Shown here: piece by piece, positions 4,568 to 17,188 of the stretch | Layout: each line of letters opens with the position of its first letter | How positions within the stretch are numbered: the stretch's first letter is position 1 | Virus record (IMG/VR): IMGVR_UViG_3300048050_000023 | Location: 1 to 20,218 of that record | DNA length: 20,218 bases | Strand: one strand, 5' to 3' | From: a virus | Made by a program: the position numbers and the translations under genes | Notes under the pieces: model-generated | Told to the model about the DNA's origin: nothing | Databases searched by the model: none | Seen by the model: only the letters and a program-made list of their open reading frames with translations

Positions 4568-5263
4568 ATGGGTCGGATTGAACATCTTGAGTTAAAAGAA
4601 AAGTTAAGAGAAATTATACCTCTCAGTTCCGGGGGAAGTTTTCAACTCCTATGGGATATGCTTTACCATATCCGCCTGCTCAAATATGTTCATCAGATGC
4701 AACTTAAAGAAATAAACCCCCGGTACTCTAAGATTTGCGCTACCGATAAACTTAACTTCCTTGTTAATCTGGGACTACTTGAAAGCCCGAAAAAAGATAT
4801 TTACATCGGCACAGATAAAACCACTGTTTCCTTAGCGCAGGAGGGAGTTTATGTTAAATCGTTACCTAATATATCTACTGGATTAGGGGAAATTAACCAG
4901 CTCAATAATACCGAGGTTTTTATTCAGGCTCTTAAATTGCCACTATTTAAGGCTCTGCTCTACCCATATTTTAGCTACACAATTCCAGACGCTTTGTTAG
5001 TTTTAATGGATGGCGACAAGTATAAATTAGTGTTTTTAGAAATTGAAGCCAGTAAGGCAAATTGGAGCAACTGGCTGGAAAATAAGAGAATTAATTATTT
5101 AAGGCTGGCCCAAGATAGGCAGGTTTATGCTTATTGGAAGACCCAGTGTAATCATCTAAACATCGCCCCACCCAAAATTGAAGACTTCAAGTTTTCCGTT
5201 ACCATAGTAGGTAACGTTAAAAAAGAGTTTGGGCCGGGGTTTAATTTCGTAGAGAGTTTATAA
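4568..5263 (+). CDS. Replication-relaxation-like protein (winged helix plus PD-(D/E)XK-like domain)
   Basis: A 231-residue protein from the ATG at 4568; a TTG two codons earlier is an alternative start. The N-terminal part (about 20-100) looks like a winged helix, with LLWDMLYHIRLLKYVH and a DKLNFLVNLGLL helix. The C-terminal part has IPDALLVLMDGD, then LVFLEIEASK (Asp141, Glu158, Glu160, Lys163), then a helix with NKRINYLRLAQ. This order resembles replication-relaxation family proteins of conjugative and mobilizable elements, whose core resembles a PD-(D/E)XK nuclease fold. It is the first gene of an overlapping operon that ends with a coupling ATPase, which supports a role in DNA processing for transfer. 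Activity is not established; the family call is by pattern only. Confidence 0.6.
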   Translation: MGRIEHLELKEKLREIIPLSSGGSFQLLWDMLYHIRLLKYVHQMQLKEINPRYSKICATDKLNFLVNLGLLESPKKDIYIGTDKTTVSLAQEGVYVKSLPNISTGLGEINQLNNTEVFIQALKLPLFKALLYPYFSYTIPDALLVLMDGDKYKLVFLEIEASKANWSNWLENKRINYLRLAQDRQVYAYWKTQCNHLNIAPPKIEDFKFSVTIVGNVKKEFGPGFNFVESL

Positions 5264-8995: not shown

Positions 8996-9229
8996 ATGGC
9001 GAACATTTCATTAAGTAATAAATCGCGCAAGCGAGGGCCAAAGCCCTCTCTTTGTGCTGGGGATAAATTGTTTATTGTTAGGAAGTATATTTTAGCGAGG
9101 AGCGCTATTGAGGCAATTCGTAAAGATAAGCTAACTCCAGTTGATGACGTCTGGATTGATGAGGATTTCCGCAAATCTAGTCCAGGAGCGTCAGCTATTG
9201 GCTTTGTCGATTATAGACAAGAAGAATAG
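8996..9229 (+). CDS. Hypothetical small protein before the tRNA
   Basis: A 77-residue protein with a basic N-terminus (SRKRGPKPS, about residues 10-18), a helical middle (FIVRKYILARSAIEAIRKDK) and a C-terminal segment DDVWIDEDFRKSSPGASAIGF. The N-terminal basic, proline-containing segment could contact nucleic acid. No family recognised. It sits about 23 bases downstream of a predicted transcription start. Its TAG stop overlaps the first two bases of the tRNA, so tRNA maturation would cut the message at the end of this gene. Confidence 0.6.
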   Translation: MANISLSNKSRKRGPKPSLCAGDKLFIVRKYILARSAIEAIRKDKLTPVDDVWIDEDFRKSSPGASAIGFVDYRQEE

Positions 9230-9300
9230 CGGGGTAGAGCAGTTGGTAGCTCGCCTGGCTCATAACCAGGAGGTCGTGGGTTCGAGTCCCACCCCCGCCA
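9228..9300 (+). tRNA. tRNA-Met (CAT), initiator-like
   Basis: A full cloverleaf: acceptor AGCGGGG with CCCCGCC, D-stem GAGC with GCTC, anticodon stem CCTGG with CCAGG, loop CTCATAA (anticodon CAT at 9261-9263), variable AGGTC, T-stem GTGGG with CCCAC and loop TTCGAGT, discriminator A9300. Initiator hallmarks are present: position 1-72 is unpaired (A and C), and A11-U24 occurs in the D-stem, the opposite of elongators. Two of the three G-C pairs at 29-31/39-41 are kept (the third is U-A). CCA is not encoded. The 5' end overlaps the stop codon of the gene before. Confidence 0.93.
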
Positions 9301-9307
9301 CAATTAT

Positions 9308-11068: not shown

Positions 11069-12955
11069 ATGAAAAAATCATTTATCAACCAGCCACATTC
11101 TGACAAGATTGTTAAATTAATCTTGAACGAGGTAATTAATTACGAGACCAGCACGATTGATTTGTCAGACCGTGTTAAGTTTAATCAGTACCAGACAATA
11201 CAAATAAATATTACTCACCAGAATCACGGATTTTTAACAAACCTGGCACCTGGGCAGGAAGACGACCGGGAATTTTACGATATCATTACTCCGATGATCG
11301 AAACCGGCGTAGCTAATACCGACTTGGACACTGATAATATTGATACTTTTACGGATGAAGCTGAATACCTGGCGCACGAGCTATTGGCTAATGCTTTGAT
11401 AAAACGCTATAACCGGCAGACCAATCAAGGAGTAGTCCTAAATGAAATGGTCTATCAATTCTTTGATGACGGGAATATTATCGTCAGAAAAGTTGATGGA
11501 GAGGGCGAACTTTACCGACCAGTGCTGCCTCAAAATCTGATTATCGTTGACCAGTCCGCCAGAACCTTGGAGGATACCGCGGTAATTGAGAGAGCAACGA
11601 TGAACCAAAGCGAGGTGAGAGGCGTTAAGGGCTGGGATAATATTGATGAGCTATTTGAGTATTGCGACCTCAGCGAGACGGATTTTATGCCGTATTACGA
11701 GATTTTCTATTGGTACGGCGATCTGTCGAAACAAAGGCTGGGAAGAATCAAGAAGGAAGTCCACGGTACAGATTATAAATACAAAAAAGGCGACAAATAC
11801 AACTATATCCAATCAGTAGTCGTCATTGCCAGGGCAAAGAAGGGTGTCAGGAACGAAAAAGGGGCCGAAGTTCCCGGATTCGTCTTGTTCGCCGAAGAAC
11901 TTAAGCCACAGATTATTAATATCACTAAGAAATTAAAGATAAAGCGTTTCAAGCCGTATGAATCAGTAAGGCTTGGCAAGTATAACGGTAGGTTCTGGGG
12001 TGCTGGATATCGTGAAATCGGAGTTCCTTATCAAAACAGAGCCAATGAGCTTGGCAACCAGATTAGACAGATAATGAAGCTGGCCTCTAAAATGGTTTTT
12101 TGGAGTACTGATGATGAGATTGCCGGAAAGAACATCTTATCCGCTATTAAGAACGGTCAAATTTTACAGGCAAAAGACTTGTACCTGTTAAATAACGTTT
12201 TTCCAAACCTTACTCTATTCAGTGAGGAATGGAATAGGAATATTAATGAGGCTCAGAAAGCCCTTAAAGCTTTCGAGGCTGCTTCCGGTGAAGCCCTTCC
12301 CTCTAGTACCTCAGCCACCGCTATACTGGCTCAAACACAAGCTATTGGTAAATTCTATGATTTCAAGCGTGAGAGATTCGGCCTACTCCTTTCTATCATC
12401 TATAAGCGCTGGATACTTCCTGAAATAATGAAAGGAATGAAGGAAGATGAAGTAATTGAAATAACTGGTGATGTAGATTTTATCGACAAAATGATTGAGT
12501 TCTATCTTAAGGGTTCAATCATTCAAAGCGAAATGCTTAATACTGCATTAGCTGGCGGGGTTATGTACCAGGAGAATTTTGACCAGTTATTGCAAATGAA
12601 GAAACAGGACATGGTTAAGCACCCCAAGTTGTATGCTTCTATTGCTCAGTTCTTCTTTAAAGGTGTGGATATCTTTGTCGGAATAAACGTAACAGGAGAA
12701 GGCTTTAATAAACAAAATAAGCTTTCCAATATCCTCAAGATGTTGGAATTTGAGGTTAATCCGAATATTATGAATAATCCGGCTGCCTTGGATGATCTTA
12801 ATGAAGCCCGCCAGATGTTGGGCTTAAAGGCCAATAGGAATAAACCTCAACCGGCCCAAATGGTTACAAATACACCGCCAACTAATACTCCGTCCCCCAT
12901 GCCCACCAGAGAACAACCACCTTTGAAACCGAACGGAAACCCCAATATGCTATAA
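11069..12955 (+). CDS. Portal protein
   Basis: A 628-residue protein directly after the large terminase, where the portal is expected. Residues about 60-600 have portal-like segments: ITPMIETGVANTD, a long helical stretch with YREIGVPYQNRANELGNQIRQ (the tunnel or stem helix region) and a late helix with NEARQMLGL. The C-terminal 45 residues are proline- and asparagine-rich. Portals form the dodecameric ring at the capsid vertex through which DNA passes. The size fits podovirus-type portals. The call rests on position and length more than on a signature. The stop TAA is in the next promoter. Confidence 0.82.
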   Translation: MKKSFINQPHSDKIVKLILNEVINYETSTIDLSDRVKFNQYQTIQINITHQNHGFLTNLAPGQEDDREFYDIITPMIETGVANTDLDTDNIDTFTDEAEYLAHELLANALIKRYNRQTNQGVVLNEMVYQFFDDGNIIVRKVDGEGELYRPVLPQNLIIVDQSARTLEDTAVIERATMNQSEVRGVKGWDNIDELFEYCDLSETDFMPYYEIFYWYGDLSKQRLGRIKKEVHGTDYKYKKGDKYNYIQSVVVIARAKKGVRNEKGAEVPGFVLFAEELKPQIINITKKLKIKRFKPYESVRLGKYNGRFWGAGYREIGVPYQNRANELGNQIRQIMKLASKMVFWSTDDEIAGKNILSAIKNGQILQAKDLYLLNNVFPNLTLFSEEWNRNINEAQKALKAFEAASGEALPSSTSATAILAQTQAIGKFYDFKRERFGLLLSIIYKRWILPEIMKGMKEDEVIEITGDVDFIDKMIEFYLKGSIIQSEMLNTALAGGVMYQENFDQLLQMKKQDMVKHPKLYASIAQFFFKGVDIFVGINVTGEGFNKQNKLSNILKMLEFEVNPNIMNNPAALDDLNEARQMLGLKANRNKPQPAQMVTNTPPTNTPSPMPTREQPPLKPNGNPNML

Positions 12956-13226: not shown

Positions 13227-13814
13227 ATGGAAAATAAGAAAGAGTTTTCGCCAAAGGACGAAAGTACGATTCGCCAAGAAGTCATCACTGAGTATGAGTT
13301 AGACCCAAATGAAGAAGTGAATAAAAAGGTCATCGACAAATTGACTTCTGAACGAATGGAAACCCAGAAGAAGATTAGCACCGCCATTGCTCAAAAAATC
13401 AAAGTCCGAGAGGGAAAAGATTTTTATAAGCAGGTATTGGCTGATGCTAAACTAGACCCGAAAACGGGTAAGCCTCTGGAAGAAAAGAAACAAGTTCAGA
13501 ATGAAGAGGAAAAGTTTGTTACCAAAGAGGAGTTTGAAAAAGATAAGCTCCGTCGGCAACATTCAGACCTCACAGATGATGAATTTGAGTTTGTTAACGC
13601 TTATGCGAAAGGTAGCGGAAAGAGTTTCAGAGATGCTCTAAAAACAGAAATAGTTAAAGAACACTTTGAAACAATCGAAGTCCAAAGCCGAGTAGCAGGA
13701 GCAACAGGCGACCCCTCGACTAGATATAAATCTTCTAGCGCTTCCGAGGAGGACAAAATCGCAAGTGAACTTGATAGGGATTTGCCTAAAGGGTTCAGTT
13801 CTAAGAAAAAATAA
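13227..13814 (+). CDS. Scaffolding protein candidate
   Basis: A 195-residue, strongly charged, helical protein (rich in K and E, residues 1-120, with a coil-like stretch around EEEKFVTKEEFEKDKLRRQ) and a disordered basic C-terminus (SSSASEED then SSKKK). This composition and its place between portal and capsid genes fit a scaffolding protein, which guides capsid assembly and leaves before maturation. There is no catalytic motif, so it is not an obvious head protease. The A at -1 of the ATG differs from most starts. Confidence 0.6.
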   Translation: MENKKEFSPKDESTIRQEVITEYELDPNEEVNKKVIDKLTSERMETQKKISTAIAQKIKVREGKDFYKQVLADAKLDPKTGKPLEEKKQVQNEEEKFVTKEEFEKDKLRRQHSDLTDDEFEFVNAYAKGSGKSFRDALKTEIVKEHFETIEVQSRVAGATGDPSTRYKSSSASEEDKIASELDRDLPKGFSSKKK

Positions 13815-13824
13815 CTAAAAATCT

Positions 13825-14241
13825 ATGATGGAATTTAAATTAAAAGATGGAGAAAAAGTCCGTACCGTCAAGGTAATAAAGGCTTCCGCTACTGTTTTAC
13901 CAGCCGGTTGTTTGGTCGCTTTGGACGCAGGCGGTCTGGCTATTAAGGCTATCAGTACCAGTGCCGCTATTGCCTACTGTCCGAATGGGGGCGCAGCTGG
14001 TCTTACGGAAGTTGATGTAACTATCGGCTCTGATTATACCTTGATAGGCTTAGGAAACGCCGCGGCTGTATTTGCGGTCACCATGAAGGGCACTACCTGT
14101 GATATTAGTGGTACTACCTCGGTTATTATAAATAATTCAGCGACTTCCACTAATGTATTGAAAGTTGGTATCAGTAAGGACGCTGGCGTAGTCGGGTCGG
14201 CGGCTAATATCGAAGTTAGGATAAATAAGCCGTTGTTCTAA
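13825..14241 (+). CDS. Capsid decoration protein candidate
   Basis: A 138-residue protein rich in A, G, T, V and S with alternating hydrophobic residues, so mainly beta strands. It sits directly upstream of the major capsid gene, the usual place of the head decoration protein (lambda gpD-like). The stretch VKVIKASATVLPAGCLVALD is typical of such proteins in metagenomic phages. Function inferred from position and composition. Confidence 0.55.
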   Translation: MMEFKLKDGEKVRTVKVIKASATVLPAGCLVALDAGGLAIKAISTSAAIAYCPNGGAAGLTEVDVTIGSDYTLIGLGNAAAVFAVTMKGTTCDISGTTSVIINNSATSTNVLKVGISKDAGVVGSAANIEVRINKPLF

Positions 14242-14268
14242 CTATTAATTATTTAAGAAAAGACTATT

Positions 14269-15204
14269 ATGATGTACGAATACGCATTACAACGGGTGAA
14301 AGGTATCAAGAAATCCTTTGATAACGCCATGGCCAACGCCATCGACACTTATCAAGATAATCGGATTGTTGACCTTTACCCGACCACCGAAGTATTTGAA
14401 ATTTTTACTTCCTCCGAGGGTATGAGCGGAGCTAAGAACTTATCCAATGGCGAAACTCCGCCTGTCCTTGATTTAAATGACGGTTATTCCGTTATGATCG
14501 AGGAAAAGCGCTGGGGCGGTGCGATTGAGTTACTGGAGAATGAATACCGTCGGGAGGCTAATGATGTTTCCACCAAAGTTAAAACCGCTTTAATCCGCAA
14601 GCGTAATAAGCTGTTAGTTGCCAACAAGAGTTTATTCTTGAGCGAAATGTTCAAGTTCTTAAACTATGCTTTTGCAACTACCTTTTACGCTGCTCCGGAC
14701 GGTGCCGCTTTATGTGGTACTCACACCTGGAATACTCCGGGCGCTCCTACCTTTGCCAATAACGCCACAGCTGCTTTGAGTATGACCGCTGTTGACACTC
14801 TGGAGGAATATGCAGGCGCATTTGTTGACCCGGCTGGCAACCCAATGCCTTTAGACTTCGACACTATCGTTGTAAAGAAAGGTTCTGCAAATTTCAGGTT
14901 AGCTAAGCAGTTATTCGCCGAAGGTATCTCTCCGACCAAGATTGCTGATATTAACATCTATGAGGGTGAAAAGACTATTATCGCCACCCCTTATATCACC
15001 ACCGCTAATAAAAATTATTGGTTTGCCATCGCGTCTAACGATCCGAACGGCAATCCTTTAAAGATTGGTATTGGTGAATATCCGACCTTAAGGGAGCCTA
15101 TCAAGCAGAATAATGAGGCTATCCGTTCTAACTGCACTGGTTTCTGGAAACAAGGTATCGTAAATATGCCATACGCTTTTTACGGAAGCAACGGGACTAC
15201 TTAG
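14269..15204 (+). CDS. Major capsid protein
   Basis: A 311-residue protein with HK97-fold features: an N-terminal helical part, an E-loop-like region with GYSVMIEEKRWGG, a long helix with STKVKTALIRKRNK, and a P-domain/A-domain stretch with LDFDTIVVKKGSANFRLAKQ. It is the third gene after the portal, as expected. The sequence ends PYAFYGSNGTT; the final six residues recur at the end of the HNH protein downstream. Start ATGATG, first ATG used. It assembles the icosahedral shell. Confidence 0.85.
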   Translation: MMYEYALQRVKGIKKSFDNAMANAIDTYQDNRIVDLYPTTEVFEIFTSSEGMSGAKNLSNGETPPVLDLNDGYSVMIEEKRWGGAIELLENEYRREANDVSTKVKTALIRKRNKLLVANKSLFLSEMFKFLNYAFATTFYAAPDGAALCGTHTWNTPGAPTFANNATAALSMTAVDTLEEYAGAFVDPAGNPMPLDFDTIVVKKGSANFRLAKQLFAEGISPTKIADINIYEGEKTIIATPYITTANKNYWFAIASNDPNGNPLKIGIGEYPTLREPIKQNNEAIRSNCTGFWKQGIVNMPYAFYGSNGTT

Positions 15205-15226
15205 TCTATAAATATTAGCCAGTAAA

Positions 15227-15235
15227 TGGTATAAT
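15227..15235 (+). promoter_or_regulatory. Extended -10 promoter of the HNH cassette
   Basis: TGGTATAAT with no -35 box. The predicted transcription start is near 15242, at the GGG that begins the three-helix RNA. Confidence 0.6.
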
Positions 15236-15239
15236 ATTA

Positions 15240-15292
15240 TTGGGTACGACGGTCGTAAGTAAGGGGGTGGTATGTTCACCCCCTTAGCCCAA
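15240..15292 (+). ncRNA. Three-helix RNA leader of the HNH cassette
   Basis: TTGGG (15240-15244) with CCCAA (15288-15292) closes two perfect hairpins: TACGA (15245-15249) with TCGTA (15253-15257), and TAAGGGGGTG (15260-15269) with CACCCCCTTA (15277-15286). The arrangement forms a compact three-way junction at the 5' end of the transcript. It may be a regulatory leader or a small RNA; no known class recognised. Confidence 0.5.
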
Positions 15293-15315
15293 CTTTAATT
15301 AATTAACATACAATT

Positions 15316-15843
15316 ATGCAGGAGACGAAAAAATGCTTGTTTTGTGAAAATGAGTTTACTGGACATCCTAGAATATTTAAAAGAAAGGCTTGTTGTTCTC
15401 TAAAGTGTAATCGTAATTATTGGAGAAAAACTCATAGAGATAAATATCTTAATACTACCAAAGAGTATAATAAGCACGTATCGAACACCCCAGAATTGCA
15501 TAAGAGAAAATTAATTTGTCAAAGAATTAATTTTAAAACACCAAAAGGGAGATTTAATCATATTAAATCTGGTGCTATACATAGGGGATATTCATTTTCT
15601 TTAACCTTTGAAAGGTTTATGAACTTATGGGGAAAACCATGTCATTATTGTGGAACAAATATTAATGGTGTCGGTATTGATAGAATAGATAACACCGTTG
15701 GATATGAATTAACTAATTGCGTTCCCTGTTGTAAAACTTGCAACGTAATGAAAAATACTCAAACTCAAGAAGAATTTATAAACAGATGTATGACTATTTC
15801 TAAAAAGTGCTATAAGCTTATTGGTTCGAATGGTACAACCTAG
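15316..15843 (+). CDS. HNH homing endonuclease
   Basis: A 175-residue protein. The N-terminus has a zinc-finger-like CLFC ... CSLKC segment (Cys7-Cys31). The nuclease core is CHYCG (109-113), GIDRIDN (120-126), GYELTNCVPCC (129-139) and CNVMKN (142-147), the usual HNH order with a structural zinc site. The protein ends GSNGTT, the same six residues as the capsid protein, encoded with different codons throughout, after a non-conserved linker CYKLI. Free-standing enzymes of this kind cut a related gene and spread by repair copying. It lies between capsid and head genes with its own promoter and leader RNA. Confidence 0.88.
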   Translation: MQETKKCLFCENEFTGHPRIFKRKACCSLKCNRNYWRKTHRDKYLNTTKEYNKHVSNTPELHKRKLICQRINFKTPKGRFNHIKSGAIHRGYSFSLTFERFMNLWGKPCHYCGTNINGVGIDRIDNTVGYELTNCVPCCKTCNVMKNTQTQEEFINRCMTISKKCYKLIGSNGTT

Positions 15844-15848
15844 GTTAA

Positions 15849-15911
15849 TTGTTAGTTAGGGGTGCTGTCTTTCAGACGGCACTCTGATACTAATAATTAA
15901 ATAACTAACAA
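15849..15911 (+). repeat. Inverted repeat enclosing a hairpin before the next gene
   Basis: TTGTTAGTTA (15849-15858) pairs with TAACTAACAA (15902-15911). Inside, GTGCTGTCT (15862-15870) and AGACGGCAC (15874-15882) form a 9-bp stem with loop TTC. It ends five bases before the ATG at 15916. It may be an RNA element or the native end of the capsid message. Confidence 0.5.
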
Positions 15912-15915
15912 ATCT

Positions 15916-16242
15916 ATGACTGATTTTTACACAAAAATCACAGACCAAGACAATGAGGTCGTTAAACAAAACTTCAAGACGGGAAAGCTCGTTGACGGTA
16001 AATTGAAAGAAACCAATGTTTACCGTGAGGTAACTTTGGAGGATATCGCCAGAAACGCCCTCTTAAAATCCGATGATGAAGTTAATCCTGATGAAGTCTT
16101 AAAACGCTATCAGCTTTTTAGGAAGATTTATCAAAAAGGAGAAGTCGATTTAACTGAGAATGAAAAGACTCTCTTAAAGAAACTTATCTGTAAAATTCAC
16201 GATGTTATATTCGCCGGTCAGGCGCTAGAAATAATTAAATAA
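15916..16242 (+). CDS. Hypothetical protein of the head cluster
   Basis: A 108-residue protein with no recognised family. It has a beta-rich start (MTDFYTKITDQDNEVVKQNF) and helices from about residue 35, ending LLKKLICKIHDVIFAGQALEII. Its place after capsid and before other head-tail genes suggests a head-completion or tail-assembly role. It starts in the TCTATG context, downstream of the inverted-repeat hairpin. Confidence 0.55.
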   Translation: MTDFYTKITDQDNEVVKQNFKTGKLVDGKLKETNVYREVTLEDIARNALLKSDDEVNPDEVLKRYQLFRKIYQKGEVDLTENEKTLLKKLICKIHDVIFAGQALEIIK

Positions 16243-16243
16243 T

Positions 16244-16591
16244 ATGCAGTATTTTAATCACGAGGGAAAGTGGGTATCACATGAAGAGTTCTTAAAGCTT
16301 AAATACCCGGAAGAAATCGCAACAGAGAAAGCAACTGGTTCGTATGAATCCGTTAAATTCAACGATTTAAAGAAATTGGCACGAGGACGAGGCATTACTC
16401 TGACGAATAAGGAAACAAAAGAAGAGTTGTTAGCTCTATTAGTGTCTTATGACAACTTGAAAGACGGGGATGAATTTCAAGATCAAATCGCCAAGTATGC
16501 CACAGAAGAATTTATTACTGAAAACGGCTTAGAGAATAAATTAAAAGTTGGAGATTTGTTTTTTGTCCCTAAAGTGGTGTCTAAAGATTAA
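16244..16591 (+). CDS. Protein with a SAP/HeH-like motif
   Basis: A 115-residue protein. Residues about 38-70 (FNDLKKLARGRGITLTNKETKEELLALL) fit the helix-extended loop-helix (HeH/SAP) pattern of small DNA-binding domains often found in phage structural and terminase-region proteins. The flanks have no clear domain. It starts one base after the previous stop, so the two are coupled. Role unknown; DNA contact near the head vertex is a possibility. Confidence 0.55.
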   Translation: MQYFNHEGKWVSHEEFLKLKYPEEIATEKATGSYESVKFNDLKKLARGRGITLTNKETKEELLALLVSYDNLKDGDEFQDQIAKYATEEFITENGLENKLKVGDLFFVPKVVSKD

Positions 16592-16605
16592 TTTCAATCA
16601 AAAAT

Positions 16606-16986
16606 ATGGAGGACTATTTCTACAAGCAGCTAAACCCTGCTCAAGCATTAACTGCAAGTTATGTTGCTGGCAGTGCTTTTGACCTTATCACCAAATACAA
16701 TAGACTGGTCTTATTAATTGACTTCACTTTGGGAAGTCTTACATCGGCTCAGTATAAAATTGAGTTCTCACCCGATGGAAACACCTGGTATCAAGAAGTC
16801 GCTAGTGCGGCCACAGCAGGCGCAATTACCGACAGTTTAGCCGAACATACTTTATCCGCAACTGGTAAATATCGTGTTCCATTAATTCTGGCCGATCGTT
16901 TTATTAGGGTATCTGTCAAAGGTACTGGAACCGTGACCGGGTCTTCAATAACTGTTAACAGCGTTTTAGCAGAGAGCGAAAACTAA
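16606..16986 (+). CDS. Beta-rich structural protein
   Basis: A 126-residue protein with alternating hydrophobic strands, including IEFSPDGNTWYQEV, DRFIRVSVKGTGTV and SSITVNSVLAE. Such sequences are typical of a beta-sandwich in phage virion proteins such as head fibres, decoration or tail proteins. Family not recognised. Position among head-tail genes supports a virion role. Confidence 0.55.
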   Translation: MEDYFYKQLNPAQALTASYVAGSAFDLITKYNRLVLLIDFTLGSLTSAQYKIEFSPDGNTWYQEVASAATAGAITDSLAEHTLSATGKYRVPLILADRFIRVSVKGTGTVTGSSITVNSVLAESEN

Positions 16987-16990
16987 TTTT

Positions 16991-17188
16991 ATGCAGACAA
17001 TTAATGACATCTACAATTTCATAACCACTCACAAAACGGAAATTATTGGCGTTTATACTGCTATTATTTCTACTGGTTGGATAACTTCTGAACTATTAGC
17101 CCAAATACCGAGCATAGAAGCTAATAGCGTTTTCCAAGTGATCTACAAAATGTTCCAAAAGATTTACGGATATCTAAATAAGCAATAA
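16991..17188 (+). CDS. Small membrane protein, holin-like
   Basis: A 65-residue protein with one hydrophobic segment at about residues 18-37 and a charged C-terminus (KMFQKIYGYLNKQ). Size and layout fit small holins or holin-associated proteins. It opens a run of four tiny membrane proteins before a peptidase gene, the expected order of a lysis cassette. Holin activity is inferred. Confidence 0.5.
   Translation: MQTINDIYNFITTHKTEIIGVYTAIISTGWITSELLAQIPSIEANSVFQVIYKMFQKIYGYLNKQ

Follow-up and report, generated by a model that had tools for sequence, protein, structure and literature searches.

A recoded copy of the capsid tail next to an HNH endonuclease gene in a tailed phage: a probable homing-endonuclease cassette at the 3′ end of a capsid gene

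The window analysed here is the whole 20,218-base stretch of record IMGVR_UViG_3300048050_000023, a tailed-phage fragment. Its genes follow the order terminase, 628-aa protein, small head gene, capsid, HNH and small structural genes. The 628-aa protein (11069-12955) occupies the portal position by gene order and has no family match. A tRNA-Met gene with a CAT anticodon (9228-9301) separates the replication genes from the packaging genes. Around the capsid gene, all features described below are carried by the plus strand.

The gene at 14269-15204 encodes a protein of 311 aa. An AlphaFold2 model of this protein was obtained with a pLDDT of 85 and a pTM of 0.80. When the model was compared to the PDB, the best fold matches were encapsulins and phage capsids of the HK97 fold (E values down to 2.4e-10, TM about 0.5). 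The sequence also matched phrog_4523 (head protein) at 2.4e-5. The predicted structure confirmed the assignment of the product as a major capsid protein of HK97 fold. No capsid relatives were found among 84,980 prokaryote genomes and GenBank phages; the comparisons presented below were made with 30 relatives. The next gene (15316-15843) encodes a protein of 175 aa with zinc-finger-like N-terminal cysteines and an HNH core with paired cysteines (CxxC ... GIDRxDN ... CCxxCN, here CHYCG...GIDRIDN...CCKTCN). It matched phrog_1035 (endonuclease VII) at 2.8e-17 and phrog_3118 (HNH) at 2.4e-13. Judging from these matches, the product is an HNH endonuclease of the phage endonuclease VII-like / HNH homing type. 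Between the two genes lies a conserved structured RNA motif (15242-15290), predicted to consist of a GGGU/AGCCC stem closing ACGACGGUCGUAAGU and a long hairpin. The HNH gene is followed by an intergenic hairpin and the leader of the next gene (15844-15915).

The capsid gene ends with ...TTT TAC GGA AGC AAC GGG ACT ACT TAG and the HNH gene with ...TAT AAG CTT ATT GGT TCG AAT GGT ACA ACC TAG. Hence, as an earlier note on this DNA had pointed out, both proteins end in GSNGTT and both genes stop with TAG, six codons out of six being different; this is read directly from the sequence. The positions 15187 and 15824 given in that note were off by 3 and 1, respectively. The proximal copy occupies 15184-15204 and the distal copy 15823-15843. 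Counting the shared stop, 13 of the 21 nucleotides are identical.

A coincidence, or a convergence of two short C-termini, could be put forward on the grounds that only six residues are involved and that every codon differs. However, the hexapeptide has a chance expectation of 4e-8 from composition alone. Scored on a profile of the 30 capsid tails, the HNH tail reached 17.9 bits, as compared to 6.4 bits for the best unrelated one of 3,274 distinct ORF tails. Moreover, in 1,279 neighbouring ORF pairs, C-terminal runs of at least 6 residues were shared by tandem paralogues and by the capsid/HNH pair only. The HNH tail also matches a tail found throughout the capsid family. From these comparisons a chance origin of the shared GSNGTT appears unlikely, and we give very little credence to coincidence or convergence.

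To which of the two proteins does the tail belong? A tail of the type G-S/G-N/D/T-G was observed in 27 of the 30 capsid relatives, mostly as YGS(N/D/T)GTT, and it was found in phages without HNH. This supports the view that the GSNGTT-type tail is native to the capsid family. Conversely, no GSNGTT-type tail was found in the aligned HNH relatives (63 HNH sequences compared). These proteins end otherwise, and the idea that GSNGTT is a habitual HNH tail was rejected. Since the tail is a family trait of the capsids and is foreign to the HNH relatives, the HNH gene therefore terminates in a capsid gene end. An HNH gene was also found at the same place behind a related capsid, in L032. There, YKKI takes the place of the YKLI that precedes GSNGTT in the window HNH. 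The earlier note had remarked on a Tyr four residues before both copies. Its position is correct, but because of the YKKI of L032 the Tyr is probably the HNH protein's own sequence and not a part of the duplication, which would place the fusion point at about 15822/15823. The two HNH proteins are 35% identical, and a sister relationship is not demonstrable among the 63 HNH sequences. The L032 contig ends before the HNH stop, and the tail of this HNH lies outside the sequence.

The two tails start 639 bp apart. If these 639 bp were a spliced intron, TTTTAC would be joined to GGTTCG, which also gives ...YAFYGSNGTT and a stop, so that both ends are in frame with the same protein product. Against this, no Rfam intron family was detected over 13800-17000. 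In addition, the capsid ORF is intact: a complete capsid is encoded by the message without any splicing, and recoding would then serve no purpose. On these grounds a group I/II intron or an intein was rejected, and we consider the probability of a spliced intron to be close to negligible.

The codons of the two copies were then compared with those of the family. Both copies fit the family tails about equally well. The tail codons of L015, L032, L129 and L133 are nearer to the proximal copy, and those of L013 are nearer to the distal one. L013 matches the distal copy at 14 of 21 nucleotides and the proximal copy at 9 of 21, and L015 matches the proximal copy at 17 of 21 and the distal copy at 16 of 21, none of the relatives being close enough to serve as the uninterrupted allele. 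In the window capsid body, GGA is used once and GGG never among 20 Gly codons; because GGA is frequent in the capsid tails of the family, this rarity is no decisive pointer to a foreign copy. Overall, codon comparison does not decide which of the two copies is the original.

The RNA motif was examined in related loci. It is made of GGGUACGACGGUCGUAAGU, followed by a variable long hairpin and then by AGCCC, and 11 distinct instances were collected. In a pairing scan of the motif loci, the predicted hairpin showed changes on both sides with pairing kept in 8 of 10 pairs. In five related loci, no Rfam family reached the gathering score, and the matches in the window were weak, at chance level, and none lay over the motif. 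No match to a U-tract terminator or to a sigma-70 promoter was found at the motif. A search of the 84,980 prokaryote genomes gave 15 pattern matches, which were taken as chance because none of them folds into a small closing stem with a long hairpin. Seven instances lie behind capsid genes of the family (window, L014, L018, L032, L034, L129, L132). Of the other ones, those of L124, L125 and L120 lie behind a portal-like, another capsid-like and a tail-like gene, respectively, and that of L127 behind one further gene. In L018, a native-type 3′ UTR hairpin is apparently kept behind the motif.

The gene following the motif is HNH in the window and in L032. It encodes an endonuclease with NUMOD-like repeats in L124 and a different HNH-like protein in L127, these two being recognised by eye. 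In L132, the capsid gene and the motif are followed by a 13-codon remnant of an HNH N-terminus, MKEKKKCLFCGKE and a stop. Among 19,679 ATG starts, this remnant was the best match to the window HNH start, with a score of 51 as compared to 33 for the next one. An HNH gene or a remnant of one is thus found at this site in two phages besides that of the window. A homing endonuclease comes next after the motif in 4 of the 11 distinct instances, or in 5 if the L132 remnant is counted. Considering capsid genes, an endonuclease or a remnant was observed next to 3 of 7 with the motif and to none of 24 without it (p = 0.008). By their gene arrangement, L032 and L132 support repeated occupation of the site and later loss. 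No second tail copy was found behind the motif in the motif-bearing phages that lack HNH.

Alternatively, the motif could be an ordinary capsid 3′ UTR element, the HNH gene having replaced the small decoration-like gene found behind the capsid gene in relatives and gained a capsid-like tail by an unrelated accident. In favour of this possibility, L014 (= L002) has the capsid gene, the motif and then a decoration-like gene, without HNH, and in L120 and L125 the motif follows structural genes without endonucleases. However, an ordinary element would not explain why endonucleases or remnants beside the capsid gene are confined to motif-bearing loci, nor why, in L124 and L127, endonucleases of unrelated kinds come after the motif. 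It also leaves unexplained the tail and the serine codon association described below. We therefore judge this explanation improbable.

The region behind the capsid gene shows further variations. In L037 and L131, a hairpin comes directly after the capsid gene, then a small gene similar to that at 15916 of the window, without a decoration-like gene. In L131, just past the capsid stop (~4937-4985), the decoration-like gene is deleted except for the C-terminal codons TDYLIVLRAAA and the stop, marking the gene slot after the capsid as a variable spot. A second recurrent 3′ UTR hairpin, (A)CTGG + GGGAGGG-YGTAATT-CCCTCCC + TTAAT, was seen in the motif-free L005, L015, L017, L020, L028, L030, L033 and L035. 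In L035, a homing-endonuclease-like ORF (MTQRKPIKGFKGYEIDTDGNVYSYWK...), which we take to be NUMOD4-like, is found some 1.2 kb past the capsid stop, behind the motif-free capsid gene and its next gene. On the other side of the capsid gene, L006 (= L019) and L028 carry tandem copies of the small pre-capsid gene with the common C-terminus RINKPLF.

The codon used for the serine of the tail was found to be linked to the motif. It is AGY in 7 of 7 motif-bearing capsids as compared to 5 of 21 motif-free ones, the other 16 being TCN (Fisher p = 7e-4); this association was noticed with the data in hand and rests on seven motif-bearing capsids. When the window was left out, AGY was still found in 6 of 6 motif-bearing capsids (p = 0.0016). 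AGY and TCN serine codons cannot be interconverted by one synonymous change. In the window itself, the serine of the distal tail is TCG, a TCN codon as in most motif-free relatives, and that of the proximal tail is AGC, an AGY codon. The motif is scattered on the capsid tree, where 7 changes are needed, and such scattered presence and absence is compatible with mobility as far as the sequences tell. For independent pairs on the tree, the motif-AGY association went in the same direction in 4-6 cases and in the opposite direction in 0 (sign test p 0.03-0.125, borderline).

In close pairs (>70% aa) differing in the motif, only 7 of 43 tail codons were shared at identical residues. In motif-free close pairs, 18 of 50 were shared (about 36%), and the value for the gene body was about 50%. 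Low sharing of tail codons together with an AGY bias would be the expected trace of a cassette carrying its own re-spelled tail. Motif-bearing tails were no more alike among themselves, which argues against a single recent cassette.

A simpler rival is a one-sided recombination. The HNH gene would have come from another phage, with a left exchange in capsid homology, bringing in the donor tail and the motif, and a right, illegitimate one inside the recipient tail, which would have ended up fused to HNH. The differing codons would then be due to the ordinary divergence of two alleles of the capsid gene, and selection would not have favoured codons that escape cutting. Co-conversion of flanks is typical of the transfer of phage free-standing endonucleases (PMC2988022), both tails resemble normal family tails, and even motif-free relatives have little more than a third of their tail codons in common at identical residues. 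Such a recombination accounts for the duplication but not for the serine bias, as it does not predict AGY in motif-bearing capsids. We regard it as possible, though rather unlikely.

The arrangement is probably best explained by the insertion of a homing-endonuclease cassette, with a recoded tail, at the 3′ end of the capsid gene. The earlier note had already proposed a cassette in this place. The native capsid tail, its foreignness to HNH relatives, the motif-AGY link and the cases of L032 and L132 speak for that proposal, with the amendment that the unit must include the RNA motif. Insertion would have occurred just upstream of the last six capsid codons. The putative cassette (639 bp, 15184-15822) would carry, from its left end, a synonymous capsid tail with its stop, the structured RNA element and the HNH gene up to the fusion with the old tail. 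Because a synonymous tail with a stop is supplied, the capsid protein would not be altered. The original tail, GGT TCG AAT GGT ACA ACC TAG, would have been displaced and become an in-frame appendix of six residues on HNH, and the hairpin region at 15844-15915 would correspond to the original capsid 3′ UTR. It is plausible that recoding, above all the change of the serine codon from TCN to AGY, protects the occupied allele against the enzyme. After loss of HNH, as in L132 and perhaps in L014, L018, L034 and L129, the tail and the motif would remain as a scar. The order and direction of insertion, a cut site within the tail, resistance by recoding and mobility are what we infer from this arrangement. 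More tentatively, a family of phage cassettes, each made of a re-spelled host-gene tail, an RNA element and a homing endonuclease that can be exchanged, may repeatedly invade structural genes, those for capsids among them, at their 3′ ends, leaving an immune scar that outlives the enzyme.

By analogy, the nearest known case is the duplication of C-termini in fungal mitochondria. Mobile ORFs (mORFs) with such a duplication are known in Allomyces atp6 and in Glomus atp6, atp9, cox2 and nad3 (PMC3630166). Their inserted ends show mostly synonymous divergence, with 64-81% nucleotide identity to a relative and a nearly identical protein, and the endonuclease ORF lies between the replaced host 3′ end and the duplicated native C-terminus (PMC3630166). 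Likewise, in the window two copies of the C-terminus flank the endonuclease ORF, and they have diverged synonymously at six codons of six with an identical peptide. Unlike the fungal enzymes, which are LAGLIDADG or GIY-YIG, the phage one is HNH; the phage locus is also distinguished by the duplication of six codons, by the in-frame fusion of the old end and by an RNA motif within the unit.

In phages, homing endonucleases are frequent neighbours of capsid genes (PMC2988022, PMC10448857). In T4, mobA lies by the essential gene 60, and an alteration preserving the gene product is thought to be protective (PMC5009743, PMC2988022). There, gene 60 is split and ribosomes bypass its 50-nt non-coding insert, whereas here the capsid gene is intact and protection would come, as proposed, from synonymous recoding. 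Aeh1 mobE in nrdA and seg43(25) from Aeromonas phage 25 are also free-standing endonucleases in or at an essential gene; in the latter case, the ribosome-binding site is immediately preceded by a stable hairpin in the RNA (PMC2988022). However, their host genes are split into two polypeptides, and the available text describes no recoded C-terminal duplication (PMC2988022). T4 segD, between genes 23 and 24, is an endonuclease beside a capsid gene as well (PMC2988022), but it is antisense and intergenic, and no copy of the capsid tail is described in the parts available (PMC2988022, PMC10448857). Searches of open-licence papers brought up no phage capsid gene with a recoded duplication of its C-terminus, which does not establish novelty.

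Rfam has no entry for the RNA element brought to notice here, which is placed between homing endonucleases and structural genes. The cassette model also makes a precise prediction on the cut site, namely that the sequence with a TCN serine codon is cut and that with AGY is not. If the model is true, the mitochondrial mobile-ORF strategy of replacing and recoding the end of the host gene would extend to phages, where it would operate at the most highly expressed structural gene, and the scars would make past invasions readable from sequence.
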